From Craspedostauros australis (Eukaryota > Bacillariophyta > Bacillariophyceae > Mastogloiales > Achnanthaceae), in contig JAMXDE010000018.1 in the NCBI GenBank assembly GCA_026770025.1, positions 124,001 to 188,000 on the forward strand: 64,000 nucleotides of DNA, written 5' to 3'. The notes below the pieces were generated by a model. That model was not told where the DNA came from. It saw only the letters and a program-made list of their open reading frames with translations, and searched no databases. The number at the start of each line of letters is the position of its first letter. Position 1 is the first letter of the stretch. Shown one piece after another: positions 2,861 through 31,370 of this stretch. The position numbers and the translations under genes are program-made.

Positions 2861-5566
2861 TTATGGGTCCAGCCCTTGAGCAGGAGCAGCTGTCACGGGC
2901 GGATTGTACGTCCCAGCGTTTGCCATTTCTGTGAAGTTGGGAATCAGTGATGTTTTAGTTGATGGGATGATACAAGTAGAGTGGAGGAGTTGGGAAATGT
3001 CACGAGTACAAGTCACATTCACACCGCACATTTGCATCGTCAAGCACGGACAGGACAACGACGCAGGTAAAAGAGAGAGTGCGAGACAGGCATGGAAAGA
3101 GCGTATGATGGGAGCGTGATGGGGTACAGCGTTCGGTGTCAGAAGGGAAGAGCTCGAAAGTACAAGTGCACAATCCACTCTGACAGACAACAAGTCACCC
3201 GTTCGCCATGCGCCTTCTGCGCGTTGATGCGATGCATAGTCGCATTATCATTTTTGATGTGATGGTATTTCGTGGCGATTGCGTTCGCACGCACACATTC
3301 AAATTCACAGAGAGTCGACTACTTCGTAGATCCGCCACAAGCGATTGTCGCACGGGTACTCACCTTGCGAGGACCTGGGTTTCCTCGATTTGTACTTGAG
3401 GTTCTCCTTTTCGACCATCGCCCGGAGCTTGGACCCCCCGGTTCGGACGTCGTGAGGATGACGCACGACGTAGGTGACGCAGTAGAGCGACAGACAGCCG
3501 AGGATGGAGATGTAGAAGCCCGGTACCATGCGCGGCATCAGGGATTGGTACCAGATGCTGTTGTCATCTGCCACGATGTCGGACGACCTGTAGTACAGGA
3601 ATGTGGCGATGAGGGGCATGGTGCCACCGAAGAAGCATGCTGCGAGGTTGTGACCGACGGCCACACCTGTGAAGGACAAGGTGGGGTCATTCATCCACAG
3701 CTCAACCTCCCAGGCCGCCATGCAGCCTTGCACCATGGAAAGAGCCGCTGCGAGCTGCAGCTGACCGAGGAGGATGCCCCACCACGACTCGCTCTCGAAC
3801 ATGCCGAACATGGTGGGACAAGCGACGATGACGCCTGGCAGACCGATTCGGATCAGGTCCATGCGATGCGGCAGTCCGTCAGAAGCGCGTCCCGAGATGA
3901 CCAGGAACACCATGTAGATGCCGACGACGACGAAGTTCAGCAGATCCGCATCGGACTGCGTCATGAGGCCACGAAGTTCGCTAAGGTACACCGGCGTCCA
4001 CAGGAAGAGGATGTAGAAGGCGCCGGTGACCGTGGACAGCACACCCACCATCCCGGCGAGTTGGCGTCGGCGGAACGGCGAGTCCATCAGATCGAGGACG
4101 GCTGGTCGGGTCTCGACATGCTCCGCCTCGCGGATCATATTCTCCGTGTCGCGGTTGTCGGCGCGTTCCTCCCAATGCTTGGATTCTTCGGTGTTGCTTA
4201 CGACCGTGAAGAGGATGGGAGCGAGAAGCAGCGAGAACCAGAATGGAACTCTCCATGCCCATGCATCGACCTGCTCGTTGGTGCAGAAGAGTCGGACCGT
4301 GCTAGTGACTGCCGAGGCCAAGAGGAAGCCACCGACCTGAGGGAAGAAGATGGGAAAATGGGCGTGTGGTGGGTGATGGATTTGTAGTGACGAGAGTGAG
4401 GAAGTTTGGAAGACAAGTGACAAGTGAGAAGATATGTCTGAAGGCACAACAGCCACAGCAGCACCAAGAACAACGTAAAGAGGCTACACCTTCTCTGTTT
4501 CGTAACCAATCCATCAGTCAATCAATCCAGCTATGCATCGACCATCCAATCAGACAATCCGTCAACTCACCGAGCTTGCATCGCAGATGGATCCTCGGAA
4601 TCCTCTGGCACCGGAGCTGGACTGCTCGATGCTCAGAACGTACGATCCTGCCAACTGACCGCCAACGCTGAGTCCTTGCAGCATTCTCAGCAGCACGAGG
4701 AGGATGGGCGACAGCGCACCCCACGTAGCGTACCCCGGCAGGAGACCCATGAGGACGGATGGCACGGTGATGAGGACAATGGAGAAGACGAGGGCGTACT
4801 TGCGTCCCACCAAACGATCCCCGATTTCGCCAAACATGATGGCACCAATCGGCCGCATGAGGAAGGCTGCGAGGTACACGCCGAAGGAGTTGATGAGCTG
4901 GAGCTCGCGGTTGGACTGCGGAAAGAAGCAGGCGCCGATCTCTGGTGCGAGCAGGCCGTAGACCGCAAAATCATACCTGCAGAGTGATCGGTACGTGGCG
5001 ATTGCATGAAATGTGATGTTGTGTCGATTTCGAGGATTGCAAAAGGATATCGGAGAGAATGGGGGATACATGAAATGAAGATGGAGGGAATGATGAGTGC
5101 TATGGACGTTGTTGCATTGCGCGTTTCCGAATTGCGCTGCAGTGAGCGACAGCAGACTCCGTTTCAGTGATATCAGGAGCATGCTTCCTACTGAATTCCA
5201 TCAGCAACAGCATTTGTACACTCACCATTCGTAGATATTTCCACCAACTCCGCTGAGCAATCCCCAGATGTTGTCATCTCCGTGCTCATTCTCGCTGTTG
5301 GTGTAGAAGGACAACTCCTCCTCCTGCATGCGCTTTTCGGCATCCGTGAGGTTGGTTTCCTGGTCATGCTGCTGCTTCTCCACAACGTCCATGCCCTCCA
5401 CCTCGACGGGGTGTTCGGAACCTTCTTCGTACTGTTGTGGTCCTTCCACTTCTTCCACTTGCGTCATTTCCACAGTCGTCGATGCTTGTGTTGTTGGTGT
5501 GGGGAAGGCCGATTGGATGGGGGCCGTGAGGCCCGAGGGGGAAGCGGGGTTGTTGGTGGTGGACAT
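2861..5566 (-). CDS. MFS transporter, metabolite:H+ symporter (MHS/ProP-like), 4 exons
   Basis: Proposed exons are 5226-5566, 4571-4976, 3364-4336 and 2861-2928. Introns are 249, 234 and 435 bp with GTGAGT donors and AG acceptors, and phases agree, giving 595 aa. Residues 1-113 are hydrophilic and acid/Gln-rich, presumably cytosolic. The membrane part opens with EWYDFAVYG, the TM1 signature of bacterial MHS proteins; the Trp codon is split by intron 1, which supports that splice. GEIGDRLVGRKY is the MFS motif A loop between TM2 and TM3, and RMLQGLSVGGQLAG is TM4. About 12 hydrophobic segments follow, then a short tail ending PAQGLDP. Known MHS members import proline/betaine, 2-oxoglutarate, shikimate or citrate with protons; substrate here cannot be told. 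The start codon is only 27 bp from the end of the 9-kb transposon, so the transcript leader or promoter probably lies in transposon DNA. Confidence 0.88.
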
Positions 5567-5593
5567 CGTTGTCCTTTGTTAGTCGTAGGGTAA

Positions 5594-5725
5594 TATCCAT
5601 AATGACGTTTTTCTTGCGTCCGGACGCATTCTCTACGTAGCTTGCGTCCGGACGCAAATTGAACGCTCAGTTTGCGTCCGGACGCAAATTGGGCCAATTT
5701 GCGTGGGGACGCAAATGCAAGCTCG
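5594..5725 (+). repeat. Left terminal inverted repeat of the 9-kb transposon
   Basis: Begins TATCCATAATGA. The 16-bp palindrome TTGCGTCCGGACGCAA occurs at 5642-5657 and 5672-5687, with a 15-bp version at 5614-5628 and a variant with GGGG in the centre at 5699-5714. CTCTACGTAGCT lies between the first two copies. The palindromes are candidate transposase binding sites. Confidence 0.85.
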
Positions 5726-6220
5726 CCGAAAATACCACTTGTACTACCTAAGTCCCATGTTCCTCCACGATGTCCCGTGTTGCAGAAAAAAAAACCCCGA
5801 TTTCGGTCCGAAACCCGAAAGTGGGTTGTTTTTTTTTCTGACTCCTTCGAGTAACACATTTATTTGGCGATTTAAAAAAAAAAACCCCACGATACAGCAC
5901 GGCGTCATTGGTCATGTCTCAGGGGTTCCTTTCCGTGCGCCTGTCTTGCTTTCTCGACGTCATGGGATCTGGGGTAATCATATTCTACCTTGCTATTTCG
6001 ATGTCTGGTACCTGCGTCCACCAACATGCTTGTCGTGCTTCTCATCATGCATCAGTTTTTCGGCACTGTCTCCTTCACAATCCCGGCACCGGATTCTGGT
6101 GATTTTGGTGCAGCTTTTCACAAATACTTGGCGACAACAGTGCATCCTCTCTCCTCCTCCTCATGGCACATGAGTTCCTTGCAAATCTAATCTTATGACA
6201 GTTCCATTATTCCTGGATCC

Positions 6221-9200
6221 TTACATCAAGTTATCATTTCTTGATCGCATTCGTTTCCTCGTACGCTGCCTGGCTGCCGCGAGTTCCTTCTTTATTGTGC
6301 GCGATAGTCTGTTTGGACTTCCATCTCTTGCATTGGCACCTCTGCTTGGCTTTGGTGTCGAATTCTTGGCAGCAACATGGACGGAGGCAGAGGCTTCTCT
6401 TCTCGTCTCCACCAAAATCACATCTTCGTCACATGGTCCATACTCGGTTCGTCTTCCTCCCGAAGTTCCTTTCGATGTGGCAGGATGGTTGTTGCCATTT
6501 CCAAAGTCACCATCGGTGCCAACAGACAATGTCGAAGAAGAGGCATCGCACGTCGTCTGACCCAAACTTGCTGGGACGCCCCTTCTTTCTCCTCTTCGTC
6601 TCTTCCGAAGTCTTGAACCAGATCGTTGCACCACAGTTGCTCCAACATGTACATCTCCGGCTGCTGAATTGGTCGATACTGACTGGCAATCGAAGTCTCC
6701 TTCCAGTGCATTCCGTTTGTTTCCATCTCTGCCCGACGCGTGTCGAAGCGATGTGTCTACCATTGATGGTGGCACATTGTTTGTTTGCTGTGCCATGGTT
6801 GTTTCGCTTCTGCGGAGGTCAGTGCCCAGTTCTTCCACAGCGTCCGCAGTGGCCACAAAGGGGCCCTCTCTCCTTGACCCTGCCTCGTAGACGTCCTGAT
6901 CTCTCCTCCCCATGATCTGCATGGTTGCATGTGGCGCCATGACACCACTGCTTTCATCTGGTCCATCGGTAGAATCTGAGATGTTCGCACCAGTATTGTT
7001 CAGTCCATGGACAGGAACAGCAGAGGCCTGGGCAAGCAATGCATCTTTGGCATCAGCTTCTGCAGTTGCAGCAATTGCCGTGGCAAGCCTTGCTCTTTCT
7101 TGGGCGATCCTTGCGGTAGCACGCTTTGCCCGGGCATCTGCCTTCTTCTGTTGGACCTCCTCATTTGTGCTGCGCTTGGTGTAGTCCAGGTTGGTTTCAG
7201 CACACCATAATGTTGGGTTGCGGTGGAGAAGATGATGGCATGTGTTCTCGACCACCGCTGCCACATTCTTCACAGGGAAATTGCACAGTGCCAGGGTAGG
7301 TGGTATCCCTTGTGTCTCCATCCACGCCCTCTTTTCCTCATTTGACTGTGCACACACAAACATATGGCATCCCGCGCACACCCAGGGAGTCACGATGTTG
7401 CAAACGACGCAGGTTCCTCGTTTGGCGACGCACTTCCTTGGGATGTGCTCTCTCTTCTTCATGTTGGCACGTATCCTGCCTTGTCTTGGGGTATCTGGAG
7501 TGGCCTTCAGGCGAAGGATGTCTCGTAGTTCCGCTGGTTGTACCGAACTCGAATTTGTTGGAGGATTGCCTTCGAAGAGCCTTGGTATACCGTGTGGGAT
7601 CCTTTTGCAATGGACCGATATAGTGCCAGAATGGTTGCCATCAGCCTCAGCCCTTTGGACCTCGTCGTCATCGCATAGGCGCTGCAACATGTGCCGGAAG
7701 CACGTGTTGATTTCCACCATGGTCTGCTGGAAACTGCGACGCTGATTCACCCTGTTCCTGTAGTGGCCGAGCGTGTCACTTTCGATAACGTCAGTGTTGT
7801 CTGCTGGCCGATTCGGATCCACATGTTGGCTGACCTTGTGAATGGCCATGAACATGACTTGCAGCTGTCGTGAGACGGCAGTGCAGCCCATGGTTGGGAT
7901 GGGCAGGTCCGGAGAATGTGATTCCATCATCCTGGTCATTATGTCTGAGCCTCCCTTCAACGAATTCCATACGGAGTAGATCTTGGGCAGGAAGGTTTTC
8001 ACCTTGGGTACTGGAAACTTCAGGTGCTTGTGACAGGCTTGCCATTTCCGTACCTCCTGCATGAGGTCGTCCTCTGTGAGCGATGCGAGGACCTCGTTAC
8101 ACCCTCGAAATGGTGCTTGCGTCGACATGGAAGCAAGAAATCTTGTCAACAATGCATAGGATGGTGATGCTGTCGCCCCCATTACAGGAGTTTCCGAGTA
8201 TGCGAATTCCAGAACCATTTTGTGGAGGTCCTTCAGCACCCTGCTGTAGGCTGCAAGAAGTGATGGTCTGAAGCTGGTTGCAATGGTGCGAATTGGTTTT
8301 GCTGCCATGTCGCCTGTGATGTGGTGACACAGTTCGTCCCGTTGCAATCCAATGTTGTGAGGTGATTTTCATGACAAGTGAAGATAGAGGATGGAGGTTA
8401 GTGATGTGGATTGTCATGCAAGGACGGGAAATGATGATATCACTTCAGATACGTACCAATGCAAAGGAGGGCGTTCGGAACACCAAAGACAAAGGAATGA
8501 TGCAACAACTGTATCATTTCCTCTGGTCTTGAAAAAGCCGCTCTGAACTCATCATCCTGCAGTGGGAAGAACGCATTGTTGTTGATTGGGTGACCAGGTC
8601 GTTGTTTTGCCTTTGAATGCCACTCCTTTTCGTCCAGTTCTGTCTTTGGTGATGCTCGAGTTTTCATTTCGACCACGAACACCTTTTCTTGTAGTTCACT
8701 GCCAGATTCTCCCACAACTGCAAGAAAGTCCACTGATGCTCGAGCATAAGGCTGGTCAGGATGCCTCACCAGCCCAGCACTGAATGCAGCTTTCAGTCGA
8801 GTGTTGGGCCCACAAATGTTGGCATGTGTCATCACCTCTTCCATCAAAGGGTCTTCGTTGTCTAACCCGAGCTGGATTGGTTCTCCCTCTTCACCCTTGC
8901 GGGGCTTCATATACCAGGAGGACAGCACCTGTTGCATGAGGCGCATCTGCAGCTCCTGCAGGTATTTGTTGGTACCTGCATCCTCCGACTCCGTCCTGTT
9001 GTTGCATGGCTGAGAAGTGTTCGCAGGTGCGGACGGCTGTGCTTGGTCTTGTTTGACCAGCATTCTCCGGAGGTCCGCAGCAGCAATCTTTTCCCTCCTG
9101 GATGCTGGATATCTTTTGGTGTGGATTGATTTCAGCATTGTTGTAGTCATGAGGCAGTATCGTCGATGAAACTTGCACTTCATTTGTAGGATCTTCTTCA

Positions 9201-12200
9201 GTTTTGATAGCAACGTGCCCAGTCCACGAGAGTTGTTGTCACCATAGAAGAGCCCGACCAATGCTCGGATTTCTTCCTCAGCTGCTGCTTGAGACAACAC
9301 ACTGTGGTCACAGAGTAATGCATGTAGCAGTATCTGCTCATCCGACAGTGTGTTGCCTGGAGCTGAATCATCCTCATGAGAGGCACTGGTGGCACTGTCC
9401 GAGTCAGGAACCGATTCTGCACGTTTGCTCAACGCGTCGAGCATCTTCTCTTCCAAAGCAGCCGAGTCGATGCTGTTCTCTGTCAGCGCCTTGTACACCG
9501 AATGGGCCCTGTCGTTGATCTTCCGCATTTTCTTAGTTCGATCAAGGTCTCCCAATTTTGCGCCATGGTCGATCCCAAGATACTCTGCAACTGTCTTCCA
9601 TGCTGCAATATCGAAGGTGCTCATGTTGGCTCTGTCAACCCACTCCTCTGATTGAAGAATAGTCGAAATGAGCTTGTATGTTGATGAGCTTGTGAGTGCG
9701 AACTTCCGTAGCATGAACCAGAGTGGGTCACGTTGGGCACATGTCAGTCCCTCAACCTGAAGGTCGTGGATGTGTGACGACCATCTTGCCTTGGCCGCTT
9801 CCCGTCGGCGCCTTAATTCCTCTGTGGCAACGTGGACCTGGGTCATGGCATCTCGTCTTTCGTCTCCACCTTCAGCTGCAAGGAAGAGATGATCAGCATG
9901 CGCCAAATTCCTCTCTCCTTCTTGCACTGCATGGGATGTACCATAGTTGTAGGCAAATGGCACGAAGTATTGGGGAAAGGAAGACGTCCTCAGGTCTGCA
10001 TCAGGAGGAGCGTTGACAAGGTTGTTGTACAGCTTCTCGTCCGCAAAGTTGACAAGAGTCAGGTCCCACTCAAAGCCACCCCTCTTGGTCTCAACCCCAA
10101 CCACCATCTTTCCGTTGTCCCTCATGGCATGGCATGTCAATACCTTGTTTGGTATCTTGTCAGTGGAAGCAATCCAAACGTACGGTATCCCTTTCATCCG
10201 AAGATCCATTTGACCTTTCGGTCTCCGTTCACGTTGACCAAAATCAAATGGGAGGTATCCGTCACGCTTGTGGGTGCTGAGGATATCAGCTCCAACTTCG
10301 ATGAGGTTCTTGACTATCTCTTCGCAGCTGTAGCCTCGATCGAATAAGACGGTGACATCCTCCAGCCACATCATTCCCTTCCCAAGCTGCTGCTTGATGG
10401 CATCCAGTGTCAACTTCGTGTCTCCACCTTGAGATTTCCTGAGCCAGAACAGACCACATGGCATACCTGAACAGGTGAATGCCATTGTGTTGGCAACAAG
10501 GCTGAGAAAGAATAGAAGGAGAGTGGAATGCAAGAAAAGAAAATAGGTTGAGAGTATGGATACAACTGACTGGAACTTCACAGAGAAACGAAACACACGG
10601 CCAACTCAACCATTGTGATGATCATCGCACACGTACCCAAACCGATTTTTTTGGATGTGTCGTACTCTGCGAAGGTTGCTCTTGCTGCCACGACTTCCGC
10701 ATTGGACTTTGTCATCGTCAAGGGTGATGTACCTCTCGGATGTCATGTTTCGTAGCACCATGTGATCGAGGACTTCATTGCAGCACTTCTCCAGAGTGAA
10801 CCATAGGTAAGTTGGTCGGTCACTTTCTGGTACTTCACCATCATCTGAAATGAGGTCCCATGCCTGCATGTACTCCTCCCTGGTTGGAAATCCACTGCCA
10901 GTTTGCAGAATTTTGGTGGAGTACATCTCCTTCACCGACAGATTGAAGCATGCCTGAGTTGTGAAGCCAACCATGAACTGCACAAAGTTCTTGAACCCCA
11001 TGCCCAACCCTGCTGGACCAAAGGCTGAAGAGAAGATGATGGAGTGGTCTCCGAAGACAAACTTTGTGAAGTCATCTGTGGTTGGGTTGTGTTTCTTGGT
11101 GTTGAGTACTGCACGAGCACGAATCTGAAGAACCTCAGCCACCATGAGCTTGTGGCAAAGCCGCTGTGCAGCGCTGACGGAGACAGAGAATTTGGCTGTA
11201 CGCCAAGGCAGAAGGTCCCACTTCATCGGCATAGTTTTGATTCCAGAGGCGTTGTTGTCATGGAGAGTCTGCGAAGGCAAAGTGACAAGGTAGCCATCAT
11301 TGCCATTTTCATCTCCATTACCGTTGTCATCTCCATTGCTTATGCTGTCAATATTGAAGCCAACATTGCCATTGTCATCATTGTCGGAGTTGGCGTTGGC
11401 ATTGTTGTGGTCAACATTGTTGTTGCTGGTGTTGTCGTTGCCACTGTTGAGGCATACACCGAGGCCAGTGGCAACACCAATCAAGGATTGGTTTGGCGCA
11501 ACTGAAATATGTCGAGGTGGACTCTGGGACACTTGATGGATGTCACCATCGGCAGGTGCTGTGGCTGGCTGTGGATTTGGGTCCTGTGTTGCATTATGCA
11601 TGCTGAATGCGCCAGTGCTGACACCCTGCCCGTAGGTGCTCGCATTGATGATGCTGTCTGTCACCGGAGTGGAAGTTGATCGAGCACGGTGCTGTTGGTT
11701 TGGTGACTTGTTCGCATTGATGATGCTGTCTGTCACCGGAGTGGAAGTTGATCGAGCATGCTGCTGCTGCTGTTGGTTTGGTGAGTTGTTTGCATTGATG
11801 ATGCTGTCTGTCACTGGGATGGAAGTTAATCGAGCACGGTGCTGTTGGTTTGGTGAGTTGTTCGCATTGATGATGCTGTCTGTCACCGGAGTGGAAGTTG
11901 ATCGAGCACGGTGCCGTTGGTTTGGTGAGTTGTGCGCATTGATGATGCTGTCCATCACTGGGATGGAAGTTGATCGAGCACGGTGCCGTTGGTTTGGTGA
12001 GTTGTTCGCATTGATGATGCTGTCTGTCACTGGGGTGGAAGTTGATCGAGCACGGTGCTGTTGGTTTGGTGAGTTGTTCGCATTGATGATGCTGTCTGTC
12101 ACCGGAGTGGAAGTTGATCGAGTATGGTGCCGTTGGTTTGGTGACTTGTTAGCATTGATGATGCTGTCCATCACTGGGGTGGAAGTTGATTGAGCACGGT

Positions 12201-14007
12201 GCCGTTGGTTTGGTGAGTTGTTCGCATTGATGATGCTGTCTGTCACTGGGGTGGAAGTTGATCGAGCACGGTGCTGTTGGTTTGGTGAGTTGTTTGCATT
12301 GATGATGCTGTCCGTTGCTGGGGTGGAAGTTGATCGAGTACGGTGCCGTTGGTTTGGTGAGTTGTTCGCATTGATGATGCTGTCCATCACTGGGATGGAA
12401 GTTGATCGAGCACGGTGCCGTTGGTTTGGTGAGTTGTTCGCATTGATGATGCTGTCTGTCACTGGGGTGGAAGTTGATCGAGCACGGTGCTGTTGGTTTG
12501 GTGACTTGTTAGCATTGATGATGCTGTCCGTTGCTGGAGTGGAAGTTGATCGAGCATGCTGCTGTTGGTTTGGTGAGTTGTTTGTATTGATGATGCTGTC
12601 CGTTGCTGGGGTGGAAGTTGATCGAGCACGATGCTGTTGGTTTGGTGAGTTGTTTGTATTGATGATGCTGTCTGCCACCGGAGTGGAAGTTGATCGAGCA
12701 CGGTGCTGCTGCTGTTGGTTTGGTGAGTTGTTAGCATTGATGATGCTGTCTGTCACCGGAGTGGAAGTTGATCGAGCACGGTGCCGTTGGTTTGGTGACT
12801 TGTTTGCATTGATGATGCTGTCTGTCACCGGAGTGGAAGTTGATCGAGCATGGTGCTGTTGGTTTGGTGACTTGTTCGCATTGATGATGCTGTCTGTCAC
12901 CGGAGTGGAAGTTGATCGAGCATGCTGCCGTTGGTTTGGTGAGTTGTTTGCATTGATGATGCTGTCCGTTGCTGGAGTGGAAGTTGATCGAGCACGGTGC
13001 TGCTGCCGTTGGTTTGGTGACTTGTTCGCATTGATGATGCTGTCTGTCGCCGGAGTGGAAGCTGATCGAGCATGCTGCTGTTGGTTTGGTAAGTTGTGCG
13101 CATTGATGATGCTGTCTGTCACCGGAGTGGAAGTTGATCGAGCACGGTGCTGTTGGTTTGGTGAGTTGTTAGCATTGATGATGCTGTCCATCACTGGGGT
13201 GGAAGTTGATTGAGTACGGTGCTGTTGGTTTGGTGAGTTGTTTGCATTGATGATGCTGTCTGTCACCGGAGTGGAAGTTGATCGAGCACGGTGCTGTTGG
13301 TTTGGTGAGTTGTTTGCATTGATGATGCTGTCCGTTGCTGGAGTGGAAGTTGATCGAGCACGGTGCTGCTGCCGTTGGTTTGGTGACTTGTTCGCATTGA
13401 TGATGCTGTCTGTCACCGGAGTGGAAGTTGATCGAGCATGCTGCTGTTGGTTTGGTAAGTTGTGCGCATTGATGATGCTGTCCGTTGCTGGGGTGGAAGT
13501 TGATCGAGCATGCTGCTGTTGGTTTGGTGAGTTGTTTGCATTGATGATGCTGTCCGTTGCTGGGGTGGAAGTTGATCGAGCATGGTGCTGTTGGTTTGGT
13601 GAGTTGTTAGCATTGATGATGCTGTCCGTTGCTGGGGTGGAAGTTGATCGAGTACGGTGCCGTTGGTTTGGTGAGTTGTTTGCATTGATGATGCTGTCCA
13701 TCACTGGGGTGGAAGTTGATTGAGCACGGTGCCGTTGGTTTGGTGAGTCGTTTGCATTGATGATGCTGTCCGTCGCTGGAGTGGAAGTTGATCGAGCACG
13801 GTGCTGCTGCTGTTGGTTTGGTGAGTTGTTTGTATTGATGATGCTGTCTGTTGCTGGGGTGGAAGTTGATTGAGTACGGTGCTGTTGGTTTGGTGAGTTG
13901 TTTGTATTGATGATGCTGTCCGTTGCTGGGGTGGAAGTTGCTCGAGTGTGCTGCTGCTGTTTTTTGTGAGAACTGGAAAGAAGACATGCTTCAATTGTGT
14001 TTTGCAA
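6221..14007 (-). CDS. Giant transposase-nuclease fusion of the 9-kb transposon, 3 exons, 2,499 aa
   Basis: Exons 10611-14007, 8457-10466 and 6221-8313; introns of 144 and 143 bp. Donors are GTTGAG and GTACGT, acceptors TTCAG and CACAG. The total is exactly 7,500 nt and both junctions keep sense. Residues 24-790 are 32 tandem copies of a 24-aa unit (TSTPVTDSIINANNSPNQ plus a basic HRARS-like end). An Asn/Asp-rich linker follows. A DDE-like core spans about 880-1300, with ITLDDDK (Asp 1097-1099) and VLFDRGY (Asp 1175); the third acidic residue is not identified. From about 1375, RDPLWFMLRKFALTSSS, then SVDFLAVV and FVVEMKTR (Asp1712, Glu1732, Lys1734) and a late Gln/His helix before ALLCIG, match the PD-(D/E)XK layout of YqaJ/lambda-exonuclease nucleases. 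A Cys-rich block (CVVC...CAGC...C, 2104-2123), an Ala/Lys/Glu helix and a basic tail close the protein. The start is the first Met of the frame. Function in transposition is inferred. Confidence 0.8.
8314..8456 (-). other. Intron 2 of the transposase-nuclease gene
   Basis: Donor GTACGT at 8456 and acceptor CACAG ending at 8314. Read unspliced, the frame stops three codons into the intron. Spliced, LLCI-G-DMAAKPIRT reads through and completes the helix that follows the nuclease core. Confidence 0.75.
10467..10610 (-). other. Intron 1 of the transposase-nuclease gene
   Basis: Donor GTTGAG at 10610, acceptor TTCAG ending at 10467. Splicing joins DDHHN-G-MPCGLFWL within the DDE-like core. It brings the first Asp cluster to 75-80 residues before the second Asp, a spacing that only exists in the spliced product. 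Confidence 0.75.
11640..13938 (-). repeat. Coding minisatellite: 32 copies of a 72-bp (24-aa) unit
   Basis: The unit is 24 codons, occasionally 25-26 through extra CAG/Gln codons. Positions vary in a patterned way (A/V before T or M, NNS/NKS/HNL, QQ/RQ/RH), so neighbouring combinations recur and suggest local duplication of blocks. All copies keep the reading frame. The opposite strand is also open over most of the array, which is a by-product of the repeat. Confidence 0.95.
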
Positions 14008-14461
14008 CAGCAGAAGAAGCGAGTGTCATTGCAATGTTGGCATGTCGAAGTGTGGGATGGGCAGATTGCAAGTGCATGTTGAACATGTGTTGATGTGGAG
14101 GAAGATGGGGAAGTGATGTGTGTGATGGGAAGATCAGTGGAGTGGCGATGGAGAAACGACGAGGTTGTGGATTTCGTTGGCGAGTATCCACGAGCAACAG
14201 TGAAAGCAACGGAATTGGCGGAACAGGTGTGTGTGAGTGCATGCGAAACATCAACCCACGATGACAGCAAATGCAAAATCACAGCAACGGTGCGACACGA
14301 CAAGGAGGGTGACGCACGACGCATGATCATTGTTTGTTCAATTCCCACAACTGCAACGATTATTATAAATTTAAGACATGAGGCATGTCGTGAGTCGAGC
14401 TGGCCAGTGCAAGAGGATTTAAAAAAAAAACGGCTTCTCATAAAGCGTATTTGGGCGAGTC

Positions 14462-14587
14462 CGTTGAGTCGCCGCTTGCGTCCGGACGCAAATTGGCCCA
14501 ATTTGCGTGGGGACGCAAACTGAGCGTCCAATTTGCGTCCGGACGCAAGCTACGTAGGCCAGTACCAGGCCAAAATCATTATGGATA
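14462..14587 (-). repeat. Right terminal inverted repeat of the 9-kb transposon
   Basis: Inverted relative to the left end in its outer part (TACGTAGC next to the palindrome, ending TCATTATGGATA). TTGCGTCCGGACGCAA occurs at 14476-14491 and 14533-14548, and the GGGG variant at 14503-14518. The inner block (about 14476-14518) has the same orientation as at the left end, i.e. it is flipped relative to the inverted arrangement. Confidence 0.85.
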
Positions 14588-14760
14588 TCCATAATGAGGG
14601 TTTTCATGTCTGTGGAGACAAACTCTACGTAGCTCGACTCCAGAGTCAAATGGGACCTTCCAAACGACTGTGGATGCAAATTGAACCTCATTTGACTCTG
14701 GAGTCGTTTGACGACTACGCCGGCTGCGCCAAACGCCTCCACTTTTTTCATATCCGGTGA
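14586..14760 (+). repeat. Terminus of a related (sister-family) transposon abutting the 9-kb element
   Basis: Starts TATCCATAATGAGGGTTTTC and contains CTCTACGTAGCT, both shared with the left end of the 9-kb element. Where that element has the GCGTCCGGACGC palindrome, this one has GACTCCAGAGTC. Two 18-bp arms, CGACTCCAGAGTCAAATG (14635-14652) and its exact reverse complement (14689-14706), form a hairpin. No second end or gene of this sister copy is visible, so it looks truncated. Confidence 0.6.
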
Positions 14761-18958: not shown

Positions 18959-19166
18959 TGTTGGCAAGTTCCGCTCACGGTAACCTACGAACGTGGAAGA
19001 TGGTGTTGGTTGATAGTCGTCTGTTTGCTATTTCATTATGTTGGCACTCCGATACTCTCAGTGTCCGTTCGTTCTCTTGCCCAATGCTCTTGGCGCTTCA
19101 ATCTGTTTCGTAGATTCAGACTCCGACTATGAGTCGGTATGCGAGATCCTCTCTCGCTCCTCTCTG

Positions 19167-19200
<34 letters not shown>

Positions 19201-19767
19201 ATCGTGTGCTCATGCTACACGATACTCCGTGTTCAATGCGTGCTCCGCGTTCGACACTCTGTTCATTCAGTACTGGCTTCTACTCCATGAGTACTTACCA
19301 TTTGAAGTTCACCTTCAGTATCCATGATGCTGATGCCCTTCGGTCATCGGATCTTTGCCTCCTGCTCTGACTTGGAGACAGCTGTTGACGTGGTGACATG
19401 TTGACATCCTGTCAACGTCAGTGGGTGTCCTTCTGCTCTCCAGATGTCACGTTCCATTGGTGATGCAGTAGTCTGTCAGATGATATCGTCATCTGAGGTT
19501 TAGTTGGGAAGTACCTCGAGATTCTCTTGGTACCATTGATGCATGGACGGACGATCTTCTGATTCTCTCAGAAATCGTTATTTGCAAATTTCCTCCAGAA
19601 ATCTTGCCCCTTTTCGTGTGTTCCATTTCCCCTGTAATTCTGACGAATCACAGTATACTATCGAAACGAGTATAGTTATACCGTCCAAGTGTGTATGAGA
19701 GAATAACGGGTGAACGATGCACATATACACGTACATCTTGACATATACTCACATGTACATCTCGACA
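18959..19767 (-). repeat. Copia 3' LTR
   Basis: Begins TGTTGGCAAG on the plus strand and ends CTCGACA. It contains a (CT)n tract near 19169-19198. Nearly identical to the copy at 26121-26925. Confidence 0.9.
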
Positions 19768-26120: not shown

Positions 26121-26925
26121 TGTTGGCAAGTTCCGCTCACGGTAACCTACGAACGTGGAAGATGGTGTTGGTTGATAGTCGTCTGTTTGCTATTTCATTA
26201 CGTTGGCACTCCAATACTCTCGGTGTCCGTTCGTTCTCTTGCCCGATGCTCTCGGCGCTTCAATCTGTTTCGTAGATTCGGTCTCCGACTATGAGTCGGT
26301 ACGCGAGATCCTCTCTCGCTCCTCTCTGTATTCTCTCTCTCTCTCTCTCTCTCTCAACATCGTGTACTCATGCTACACGATACTCCGTGTTCAATGCGTG
26401 CTCCGCATTCGACACTCTGTTCATTCAGTACTGGCTTCTACTCCATGAGTACTTACCATTTGAAGTTCACCTTCAGTATCCATGATGCTGATGCCCTTCG
26501 GTCATCGGATCTTTGCCTCCTGCTCTGACTTGGAGACAGCTGTTGACGTGGTGACATGTTGACATCCTGTCGACGTCAGTGGGTGTCCTTCTGCTCTCCA
26601 GATGTCACGTTCCATTGGTGATGCAGTAGTCTGTCAGATGATATCGTCATCTGAGGTTTAGTTGGGAAGTACCTCGAGATTCTCTTGGTACCATTGATGC
26701 ATGGACGGACGATCTTCTGATTCTCTCAGAAATCGTTATTTGCAAATTTCCTCCAGAAATCTTGCCCCTTTTCGTGTGTTCCATTTCCCCTGTAATTCTG
26801 ACGAATCACAGTATACTATCGAAACGAGTATAGTTATACCGTCCAAGTGTGTATGAGAGAATAGCGGGTGAACGATGCACATATACACGTACATCTTCAC
26901 GTATACTCACATGTACATCTCGACA
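26121..26925 (-). repeat. Copia 5' LTR
   Basis: Same sequence as the copy at 18959-19767 apart from scattered substitutions and a shorter (CT)n tract near 26335-26354. Confidence 0.9.
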
Positions 26926-28088: not shown

Positions 28089-29931
28089 AAGCTACAGCCA
28101 TGAAGTTTGAAATAGTGTATCCATTTGGAAGTGATCCAATTCTACGGATAGTGATGGCAGGTGGCACTGAGCGGTGTCATGACGAGTGGATCACCTGAGC
28201 GCATCTCGATACGCCTTCCTGATGCATTCACAGCATCAAGCTGCATATCCGTGCTCTATGGAGTGTGTTCGGAGTCATCAAAGCATTGGATTGGAATATG
28301 GTCGACATGCCATAGGCACATGTTCTCAGAACGCTGCACAACACGATGATCACCGTTCAGCATTGTGACATACCAGCATCTGTAGACAGCAATCCCTTCA
28401 TGACAGATCGAAGACTTCAAACTTCACAACCACACCCATTTGAGTATATCCAAAGCGATACGCTTCTTTGAATGCAAAAATACCAACATTGTATGTTGAC
28501 ATATGCTTAGAACGTTGTCTACCGTGATGCTTATTGTGTATTAGCGCACGCTAAATCTCTAACAATAGCGACACCCGTCGACCAATCAGAAATCTCCACT
28601 TTTCTTACCTTTTCCGTTCCGAACGGAAATTTTGGTCGAAAATCCGTTGTGTCAAATTTGTGTCGCATTTCGCGTCGCAGGAATCGTTTTCCCGTCAAAC
28701 ACAGTTCCAAAATGTCGCGGAAATTGATTTCTTGCCAAGATGAACCAATCTGCCCAATCAGGACAGACTTGGATCTTGGGTGTGACATGTGCGAATCTTA
28801 CCAAGACCTTCTCAAGTGAATACGATCAATCGTGTGATCGTACTACTAGCAACATCGTGAGAAGATGTAATTCACAACACGGGCTATTGCGGTGTTTTGT
28901 TCATTGACCTTTTGCACCTCATCTTCACGCAGTAACACGCACATTTGCCGTGTTGTCTCCGTGTTAATTTCACTTGCAATTTGCATGAGACCTGTCATGT
29001 CTCTCTCATGCTCACAGTTCTCAAGAATCCATCTTGTGAGCTCGCCCGCATTCATACTACCATACGAATAATACTCAATAACAACACTCATCCTCACCCC
29101 AACAACGATCTGATCACTCTACGTTTCGGTGCGGAATCCCATCCCTGATTTCGTTCTAACATTGTGCAGTATTGCGTGATATTAGCATCCATAGAATTGG
29201 ATCCCTCATTGACGGATCTAGGACTCCACACTCTATGTATGTACTCTTTGGAGTGTGATTGGAGTGATATGGATGGTTGGATTGCTCCAAACGGTCTGTG
29301 GAATGCATAGATATGAAGAAGAATGTACAGTGTGATGCGTGCCGTGCAGTATCATACGATTCACAGATTTGGTTACCAGCGTCTCTTCCAGATGGATCTA
29401 GATGTTTGCAAGCTGGTAGTATACCCATTGGAATGCCCTCAATACGCTGATCTTGTTATAATGTAGGATATTTATCCTTTCCAATGTAGGTTCTGTCGGA
29501 ATACGACCCACAACGCAAGGAATTGGAGCCAACAGATGGATGATGCACATATCTACGACTAAATCAGGCACTTATTCTCTTCATTAGATACTATATTTTA
29601 TGGATTAATTAAATGCATACTGTGAAGACTATGACAAACATGTATGATGTGGCTTGTACTTTTTCTGTGTAGTACAGGTGATCTACATTATGTACTAGCC
29701 TTGGAAGTTGATGCAAAGCCTTTGTGTCCATGGGATGTCACATAGACATTTGGACGTTTTGTGCTACTAAGTATTGTAAACACAGGCAGATTCATTCGCC
29801 ATTATCGTGGTTGCTGTTTGCCATGCGCACAGATGCGCAACGAATGGCTTCTGTGGAACAAAACCCAAGCAACACAACAAGATAGAACTTCGCCGTTGGA
29901 TCACATCCAAAACATCCAAAATGTCCCCCCT
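28089..29931. other. Gene-poor, AT-richer region
   Basis: No recognisable gene family. The best small frame is at 28846-29097. From 29460 to 29760 the sequence is AT-rich with no structure I can name. Confidence 0.5.
28846..29097 (-). CDS. Hypothetical small protein, 83 aa (uncertain)
   Basis: A frame with balanced composition and helical character (ELTRWILENCEHERDMTGLM, then ARVVNYIFSRCC). I recognise no family, and no splice partner or regulatory context supports it. It could be an exon or a relic. Confidence 0.22.
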   Translation of the reverse strand: MRMSVVIEYYSYGSMNAGELTRWILENCEHERDMTGLMQIASEINTETTRQMCVLLREDEVQKVNEQNTAIARVVNYIFSRCC

Positions 29932-31370
29932 CTGTCCCCCCTGTGTCCCCCCTGTGTACCCCCTGTGTACCCCCTGTGTACCCCCTGTGTCTCTCCTGTG
30001 TACCGCCTGTGTCTCTCCTGTGTACCCCCTGTGTCTCTCCTGTGTACCCCCTGTGTCTCTCCTGTGTCTCTCCTGTGTCTCTCCTGTGTCTCTCCTGTGT
30101 ACCCCCTGTGTCTCTCCTGTGTACCCCCTGTGTCTCTCCTGTGTACCGCCTGTGTCTCTCCTGTGTACCCCCTGTGTCTCTCCTGTGTACCCCCTGTGTC
30201 TCTCCTGTGTACCCCCTGTGTACCCCCTGTGTCTCTCCTGTGTACCCCCTGTGTCTCTCCTGTGTCTCTCCTGTGTACCCCCTGTGTCTCTCCTGTGTCT
30301 CTCCTGTGTACCCCCTGTGTCTCTCCTGTGTCTCTCCTGTGTCTCTCCTGTGTACCCCCTGTGTCTCTCCTGTGTCTCTCCTGTGTCTCTCCTGTGTCTC
30401 TCCTGTGTCTTTCCTGTGTACCCCCTGTGTCTTTCCTGTGTACCCCCTGTGTCTTTCCTGTGTACCCCCTGTGTCTTTCCTGTGTACCCCCTGTGTCTTT
30501 CCTGTGTACCCCCTGTGTCTTTCCTGTGTACCCCCTGTGTCTCTCCTGTGTACCCCCTGTGTCTCTCCTGTGTCTCTCCTGTGTACCCCCTGTGTCTCTC
30601 CTGTGTACCCCCTGTGTCTCTCCTGTGTACCCCCTGTGTCTCTCCTGTGTACCCCCTGTGTCTCTCCTGTGTACCCCCTGTGTCTCTCCTGTGTACCCCC
30701 TGTGTACCCCCTGTGTCTCTCCTGTGTACCCCCTGTGTCTCTCCTGTGTACCCCCTGTGTCTCTCCTGTGTACCCCCTGTGTCTCTCCTGTGTCTCTCCT
30801 GTGTCTCTCCTGTGTCTCTCCTGTGTACCCCCTGTGTCTCTCCTGTGTACCCCCTGTGTACCCCCTGTGTCTCTCCTGTGTACCCCCTGTGTACCCCCTG
30901 TGTCTCTCCTGTGTCTCTCCTGTGTACCCCCTGTGTCTCTCCTGTGTCTCTCCTGTGTCTCTCCTGTGTACCCCCTGTGTCTCTCCTGTGTACCCCCTGT
31001 GTCTCTCCTGTGTACCCCCTGTGTCTCTCCTGTGTCTTTCCTGTGTCTCTCCTGTGTCTTTCCTGTGTCTCTCCTGTGTCTTTCCTGTGTACCCCCTGTG
31101 TCTTTCCTGTGTACCCCCTGTGTCTCTCCTGTGTACCCCCTGTGTCTCTCCTGTGTCTCTCCTGTGTACCCCCTGTGTCTCTCCTGTGTACCCCCTGTGT
31201 CTCTCCTGTGTACCCCCTGTGTCTCTCCTGTGTACCCCCTGTGTCTCTCCTGTGTGCCCCCTGTGTACCCCCTGTGTCTCTCCTGTGTCTCTCCTGTGTC
31301 TCTCCTGTGTCTCTCCTGTGTACCCCCTGTGTACCCCCTGTGTCTCTCCTGTGTACCCCCTGTGTCCCCC
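29932..31370 (+). repeat. 11-bp minisatellite, about 130 copies
   Basis: Unit CTGTGTACCCC alternates with CTGTGTCTCTC. A third variant, CTGTGTCTTTC, is clustered near 30411-30540 and 31030-31110. The first units are all-C versions. The array contains almost no unit-length changes. As 11 is not a multiple of 3 and no frame creates a stop, all six frames stay open for about 500 codons; these are not genes. The minus strand has repeated G4-G5 runs spaced by TACACA, so it could form G-quadruplexes. Confidence 0.97.

Follow-up and report, generated by a model that had tools for sequence, protein, structure and literature searches.

What kind of element inserts at ATAT, encodes a putative transposase core fused to a candidate nuclease, and has it moved recently? 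The question is raised by the window analysed here, a stretch of 64,000 nucleotides from the diatom Craspedostauros australis (bases 124001-188000 of contig 16 in a 74.8-Mb, 90-contig assembly), and by one element within it, at window positions 5594-14587. A reading from the letters alone (the sequence-only reading) had described this element as a DNA transposon with preserved ends, recent mobility and a single gene. We consider it probable that the element has moved recently, is probably autonomous and belongs to a DNA transposon lineage common in this diatom, which combines a piggyBac-type DDD core with a RecE/YqaJ-type exonuclease. The element and its ends are as follows.

5594..14587 (C16:129594-138587), minus strand: whole element, with its gene on the minus strand and ATAT at each boundary.
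5594..5605, plus strand: terminal inverted repeat TATCCATAATGA on the 3' side of the gene; its TA is part of the duplicated target.
14576..14587, minus strand: terminal inverted repeat on the 5' side of the gene.
5611..5718: subterminal palindromic repeats of the TTGCGTCCGGACGCAA type, 4 copies, putatively bound by the transposase.
14471..14551: subterminal palindromic repeats at the opposite end, 3 copies.

The 12-bp ends TATCCATAATGA are perfect at both termini; the sequence-only reading had called the terminal inverted repeats present and well matched. Similar blocks of TTGCGTCCGGACGCAA-type palindromes lie inside both ends. The approximately 20 bp adjoining the 12-mer are unlike between the two ends, and each end type is seen again in derivatives. 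The 12-mer occurs 101 times in the genome, the reversed control only once. A further eight protein copies match at 95-99% across 700 or more of the 721 amino acids. Four of these have one stop in the matched part, which spans intron 1. The sequence-only reading had proposed a search for other genomic copies and took their absence as an outcome that would speak against it; the family is multi-copy and this objection therefore falls away.

That reading also expected TA flanks. TA is present, and the target is fuller: 98 of the 101 ends read ATATCCATAATGA and so carry ATAT, which means that A-TA-T is retained on both sides. Of 43 fetched ends, 32 have no other TATCC end directly next to them, and in all 32 the base preceding TA is A. 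The joined flanks of 30 insertions were searched against the fetched loci, and matches from element ends or neighbouring elements were set aside. This yielded two paralogous sites, one for L042, the insertion of a sister-subfamily derivative, and one for C51, a piggyBac copy that matches PF13843 (see below). The L042 sequence carries a derivative of about 750 bp at C2:497556, and its unoccupied paralogues, two copies of one repeat, lie at window positions 19120-19516 and 26281-26674. The joined L042 flanks align to these gap-free around the junction if one TA is kept; the paralogues read ACAT at the junction. This fits a TA duplication. A 4-bp duplication of the invariant ATAT would look identical, so that the duplication is 2 or 4 bp long. 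For the window copy, an allelic empty site was not found among the fetched loci, and the 394 bp flanking it on the left are single-copy. An open frame at 5222-5578 on the minus strand has its first in-frame ATG about 27 bp downstream of the element, on the same strand (counted by hand). It is possible that the element was inserted into the promoter or 5' untranslated region of this frame.

The gene comprises three exons, all on the minus strand.

10637..14025, minus strand: exon 1; the 5' limit is that of a stop-to-stop frame.
11640..13946, minus strand: coding tandem array found by TRF, with a unit of 72 bp (24 amino acids) and 31.6 units.
10502..10636, minus strand: intron 1, corrected, GTACGT...TCTCAG, 135 nt.
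8457..10501, minus strand: exon 2, with the candidate second and third catalytic Asp and a RecE/YqaJ-like nuclease region.
8314..8456, minus strand: intron 2, 143 nt.
6221..8313, minus strand: exon 3, with a conserved region and the Cys/His-rich tail.

The open frames reported earlier are real, and intron 2 agrees with the earlier placement. Intron 1, formerly put at 10467-10610, had to be moved. All 13 gene regions, from the window and 12 relatives, near-identical pairs among them, have a GT donor immediately after NRxG. In the window the alignment puts the acceptor at CTCAG, and together these place intron 1 at 10502-10636. An acceptor which restores the frame exists in all 13 regions (picked in knowledge of the alignment; F30 soon reaches a stop). 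The former intron would retain 8-9 extra residues and drop about 12 conserved ones. The spliced frame spans 2,508 codons from stop to stop. A protein of 2,499 residues (2,500 codons) is not established, because the 2,500 codons begin at TTG (by eye) and no ATG precedes the array. In this frame an ATG first appears at codon 109, within the array, which counts against the main reading. An additional coding exon upstream of exon 1 is possible; none could be placed in the aligned 5' regions by eye.

Six full copies, including that of the window, were read end to end. They are 7,475-9,186 bp long with pairwise identities of 92.8-98.3%, and form two groups (C2, C24, C62 and the window; C20 and C28) that differ in their subterminal palindromes. 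From array to stop, the frame is open in three of the six: the window (2,508 codons), C24 (2,582) and C62 (2,070). C20 and C28 have an open core and one stop in the array, while C2 has one stop in the array and a frame shift between array and core. Over the core, the ratio of nonsynonymous to synonymous substitution rates (dN/dS) ranges from 0.35 to 0.65 and is below 1 for each of the 10 pairs compared, without a significance test; the five pairs with C2 were left out owing to its frame shift. The 98 ATAT ends contain 46 neighbouring plus/minus pairs. Of these, 36 enclose 635-780 bp and are short derivatives of the element family; the other 10 enclose 3.4-22 kb. The same ends are also paired over longer distances, at C4:597095-619159 (22 kb), C13:228000-244888 (17 kb) and C17:29354-41414 (12 kb), possibly as nested insertions within elements or as unrelated neighbours. 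The A1 query gave no confirmed relatives in viral contigs (8 pattern stretches) or genome contigs (52), with the diatom's own genome as the only eukaryote genome searched.

The identity among full copies, the three open frames, the dN/dS values below 1, the 36 derivatives and the unoccupied L042 paralogue support the claim that this is a DNA transposon whose ends are preserved and which moved recently. It would also be conceivable that the element is a dead relic whose open frame survived by chance, as half of the full copies are broken and no ATG lies ahead of the array. We consider this improbable, given that the other half have an open frame exceeding 2,000 codons and that dN/dS is consistently below 1.

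To which transposase family does the core belong? Three candidate catalytic positions were assigned.

10717..10719, minus strand: codon for the first Asp in the invariant DDD of TLDDDK, candidate first catalytic site.
10339..10341, minus strand: candidate second catalytic Asp (DRGY).
10063..10065, minus strand: candidate third catalytic Asp (FEWDLTL).

An invariant DDDK motif is found at the end of exon 1, DRGY and F.WDLTL at the start of exon 2. With the second Asp of DDD taken as D1, D1 and D2 lie 76-80 residues apart and D2 and D3 91-92 in 11 of the 13 gene regions (not all independent), the window copy having 80 and 92. The literature used for comparison, parts of which were available, comprises PMC4482050, PMC2533014, PMC3408717, PMC5963040, PMC2997013, PMC12477816 and PMC9587614. 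In piggyBac, the catalytic residues are D268, D346 and D447, with spacings of 78 and 101, and the motif GTVRxNKRxIP begins at G369, 23 residues past D346 (PMC2533014). A GTHKRxGxLP-like motif (also GTHMR or GTQKR) is located 21 residues past D2 in 10 of the 11 regions.

The alignment of spliced cores was compared by hhalign with PF13843-positive proteins of the same genome, with column shuffles as control. Against nine piggyBacs the score of 32.3 exceeds all 59 shuffles (highest 28.2) and the reversed control, against seven it is 29.6 and exceeds all 100 (highest 26.2), and against subset A, which has three sequences, it is 28.8 and exceeds all 60 (highest 27.2); the three sets overlap and are not independent. 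The alignment is colinear across D1, D2, the GT..P motif and the following strands. PiggyBac subsets A and B score 26.3 against each other, so that the likeness of the core to subset A equals that among accepted piggyBacs at such depth. The sequence-only reading had suggested a search against transposase profiles. DDE_Tnp_1 from Pfam matches 3 of 16 exon-2 rows below its cut-off (best E=1.2e-4, 22.4 bits, cut-off 23), and PF13843 has no match at the element among the matches listed (see below). The piggyBac triad was itself first proposed via weak pfam01609 matches (PMC2533014).

The element's termini point in the same direction as the core. A PF13843-positive family of this genome (L077-L096; e.g. 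C28:277753 and C41:576039) has ends TATCCCTTCATGACCC...AAGGGATA in all 10 copies. None of the 10 has TTAA at its junctions, and in 8 of them TTAA occurs a few bases inside one end. TATCC termini are thus common to an accepted piggyBac family and the window lineage. They are probably also present in a second such family, in which GGATA lies near the 3' end in both copies, followed by four further shared bases; its 5' end was not reached. The wider pattern ATATCCNTAANGA is found 279 times genome-wide against 2 times for its reversed form. For the PF13843-positive copy C51, the paralogous site reads TATA, where one TA would be expected. A simple TA duplication in the first PF13843-positive family therefore does not fit this site.

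Several results weigh against a piggyBac-type core. The window copy reads ST where its relatives carry GT after D2. Compared with the more divergent subset B alone, the hhalign score is 15.6, which is reached by 40 of 60 shuffles. The hhalign probabilities are low (4.8-6.7%), with 3.0% for the positive control of subset A against subset B. PF13843 has no match at the element among the matches listed from a six-frame search (160 matches genome-wide), in which intron 1 splits the core, and an hmmscan of the exons did not find it either. Searches against PDB sequences returned no significant match, each giving none or one at chance level (E 2.8 and 4.1).

On balance, the transposase is probably piggyBac-like. 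A PF13843 match and TTAA were both tested and neither was found, so we call it piggyBac-like and do not class it as piggyBac. Alternatively, the core may be a DDE transposase from an undescribed superfamily elsewhere in the wider IS4-like clan, with a convergent likeness to piggyBac and coincidental TATCC ends. The absence of PF13843 among the matches listed, DDE_Tnp_1 as the only Pfam transposase family encountered, and subset B, which alone gives no profile signal, would all agree with this. We consider it unlikely in view of the colinear alignment, the three overlapping comparisons in which every shuffle scored lower, the similar spacings, and termini shared with PF13843-positive elements of the same genome.

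Returning to the piggyBac-like reading, what follows the core in exon 2? The features downstream of it are given here.

8662..8856, minus strand: nuclease motifs E (LDNEDP), D (ASVDFL) and ExK (VVEMKT).
7304..7411, minus strand: Cys/His cluster CxxC-x7-CxxCHxxxC and following residues.

Beyond the core, exon 2 has GLTC.Q.D.LWF.R+F..TSS, then NE.PLM, SVDFL and VVEMKTR. This gives the order E..D..ExK, which we take to be that of the PD-(D/E)xK fold. Of 16 members, four are matched by PHROG 434, a profile of RecE-like recombination exonucleases, at E-values of 0.0012-0.021. The match in the window copy has E=0.021 and spans residues 573-662 of the exon-2 frame; the other three rows, at 0.0012, 0.014 and 0.015, all belong to one close family. 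From these motifs and profiles, a RecE/YqaJ-type nuclease between the core and the Cys-rich tail is likely. Other results do not favour this assignment. PHROG 434 is restricted to the window and that one close family, with the other 12 of 16 rows unmatched. In the exon searches no Pfam nuclease family reaches its cut-off; Viral_alk_exo has 13 bits of the required 20 and lies outside the E..D..ExK part, and RE_HindIII (E=0.01) is found in 2 of 13 exon-1 rows. Pfam YqaJ (PF09588) has no match at the element. A single-sequence AlphaFold model of the window's nuclease part is unusable (mean pLDDT 35.8).

The domain might be inactive as a nuclease, or a passenger without a role in transposition. 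The activity is predicted from sequence, and profile scores are weak and come from two families only. Yet every one of the 14 rows that extend to D and ExK retains both, and 14 of 15 retain E (the count omits L011, whose frame runs off there), and this in frames that are only 29-36% identical to exon 2 of the window. This makes an inactive or passenger domain a somewhat unlikely alternative to a functional RecE/YqaJ-type nuclease.

The Cys/His cluster is present in all 8 exon-3 rows. No Pfam zinc family exceeds its cut-off in exon 3 (zf-B_box E=0.032 in 2 of 8 rows). In C46, a divergent piggyBac of the same genome, RCCVC...YHCLNC was seen by eye in the 3' part.

The coding array comprises 11.6 units in C2, 34.6 in C24, 13.6 in C62, 29.9 in C20, 33.9 in C28 and 31.6 in the window. 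The recognised units share one frame in all six full copies, and this is the frame of the core in five (not in C2). The only Pfam match above its cut-off in this analysis, PLN_propep, falls on the array (4.8e-22, 77.9 bits, cut-off 28.1). Its stretches of about 20 residues lie in the repeat unit, and we regard it as an artefact of the repeats. The order of domains given earlier, from the array through the DDE-like core and the nuclease to the Cys-rich tail, is broadly correct. Elsewhere in the window, a 22-bp minisatellite array of about 66 units is located at 29922-31370.

Where do new copies land? At 14586-14652, the end of a related but different element was seen (TATCCATAATGAGGG..., then the palindrome CGACTCCAGAGTC), which shares ATAT with the window element. 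Only its first 67 bp or so match fetched loci, and its far end was not found there. Genome-wide, 15 of the 98 ATATCCATAATGA ends are preceded by GG, as an abutting end would give, compared with about 7 expected from base composition (an estimate). Of the 43 ends in the fetched loci, 11 directly adjoin a TATCC end, at nine junctions in all; the proportion is inflated, as closeness of ends was a criterion for selecting part of these loci. At C9:342677-344803 (within L043, C9:342200-345300), three short elements from two families are arranged end to end, with one ATAT per pair. On a simple reading, each insertion supplies two new target sites, and a preference for target sites at existing element ends is suggested. 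At C8:817423-817447, two ends of different families have the same orientation and overlap by one base.

How might the element work? One large protein would be made from the three exons. Its piggyBac-type DDD core may bind the subterminal palindromes, cut the element out and join it to ATAT, with either the central TA or the whole ATAT duplicated on insertion, which the sequence cannot separate. The Cys-rich tail may aid recognition of the ends, by analogy with piggyBac. The most likely role that we can propose for the exonuclease is resection of the excision gap, which would lead to homologous recombination with the sister and thereby restore the donor copy. Alternatively, it may process hairpin or flap ends, or have no role. 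The 635-780-bp derivatives, which have the same ends, would have been moved in trans.

It is tempting to speculate further. The lineage may represent a major piggyBac-like branch which changed its target from TTAA to TA-centred ATAT, whose fused RecE-type exonuclease steers repair of the excision gap to copy-restoring recombination, and which forms end-to-end chains, the ATAT left on either side of an old copy serving as target for new ones. We put this forward tentatively, as a possibility to which we give less than even weight. If true, a mobile piggyBac-like lineage with a TA-centred 4-bp target would mean that specificity can change in free-living elements, and it would offer a natural system to map such changes. 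The fusion of a transposase with a resection nuclease would make the steering of break repair by a transposon testable.

How does the element compare with known systems? With the piggyBac superfamily (DDE_Tnp_1_7, PF13843) it has in common the DDD triad with similar spacings, the GT..R....P motif past the second D, and an AT-only palindromic 4-bp target. The Cys-rich C-terminal tail may be a further likeness, and the ends of both have CC as their first bases inside the target. PiggyBac, a genetic tool in wide use, targets TTAA and excises precisely, through hairpin intermediates. The window element differs by its ATAT target, the lack of a PF13843 match, the RecE-like nuclease region that separates the core from the tail, the coding 24-residue array and its three exons. 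The PF13843-positive family of the same genome is alike in its TATCCC...GGGATA ends and in the absence of TTAA from its junctions. It differs in that copies of the C28:277753 and C41:576039 type match PF13843 at about 6e-37 to 2e-34, and in that the flanking A is not invariant.

ISL2EU (PHIS) has a second open reading frame (ORF) with YqaJ, a target A-AT-T, ends that start with GG, and a transposase with DDE, HTH and THAP (PMC4482050, available part). A relative of ISL2EU with both genes fused would account for the candidate YqaJ-type nuclease, the AT-only palindromic 4-bp target and the duplicated central dinucleotide. We regard this as very improbable. The hhalign score against DDE_Tnp_4 is 14.5 and is reached by 20 of 100 shuffles, DDE_Tnp_4 has no match at the element among the matches listed, the ends begin with TCC or CC instead of GG, and the target is ATAT and not AATT. 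A placement in PIF/Harbinger or ISL2EU was rejected on the two DDE_Tnp_4 results; an AT duplication in AATT, GG ends and YqaJ in a separate second ORF are all absent from the window element. In 2015, the role of the extra ORFs in transposition, YqaJ included, was called unclear in the part of the report at hand, and a fused YqaJ-type version would be a direct handle on that question (PMC4482050).

The sequence-only reading held that the architecture matches no known element. This stands for the architecture as a whole, since a piggyBac-like element with an ATAT target and a fused nuclease was not met in the available parts of the literature searched, which left most subscription papers and Repbase uncovered; the transposase itself is piggyBac-like. 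A silkworm MITE family has ATAT flanks, with an end unrelated to that of the window element (PMC2997013, available part). The domesticated PiggyMac of Paramecium is a host gene for programmed DNA elimination and not a transposon, and a fused nuclease is not mentioned in the part of the report available (PMC3408717). PiggyMac and the window element are alike in their target: PiggyMac is a piggyBac-type enzyme that acts at TA-centred sites, among which TTAA is under-represented (PMC3408717), and the window element, with its probably piggyBac-like core, is found at TA-centred ATAT.

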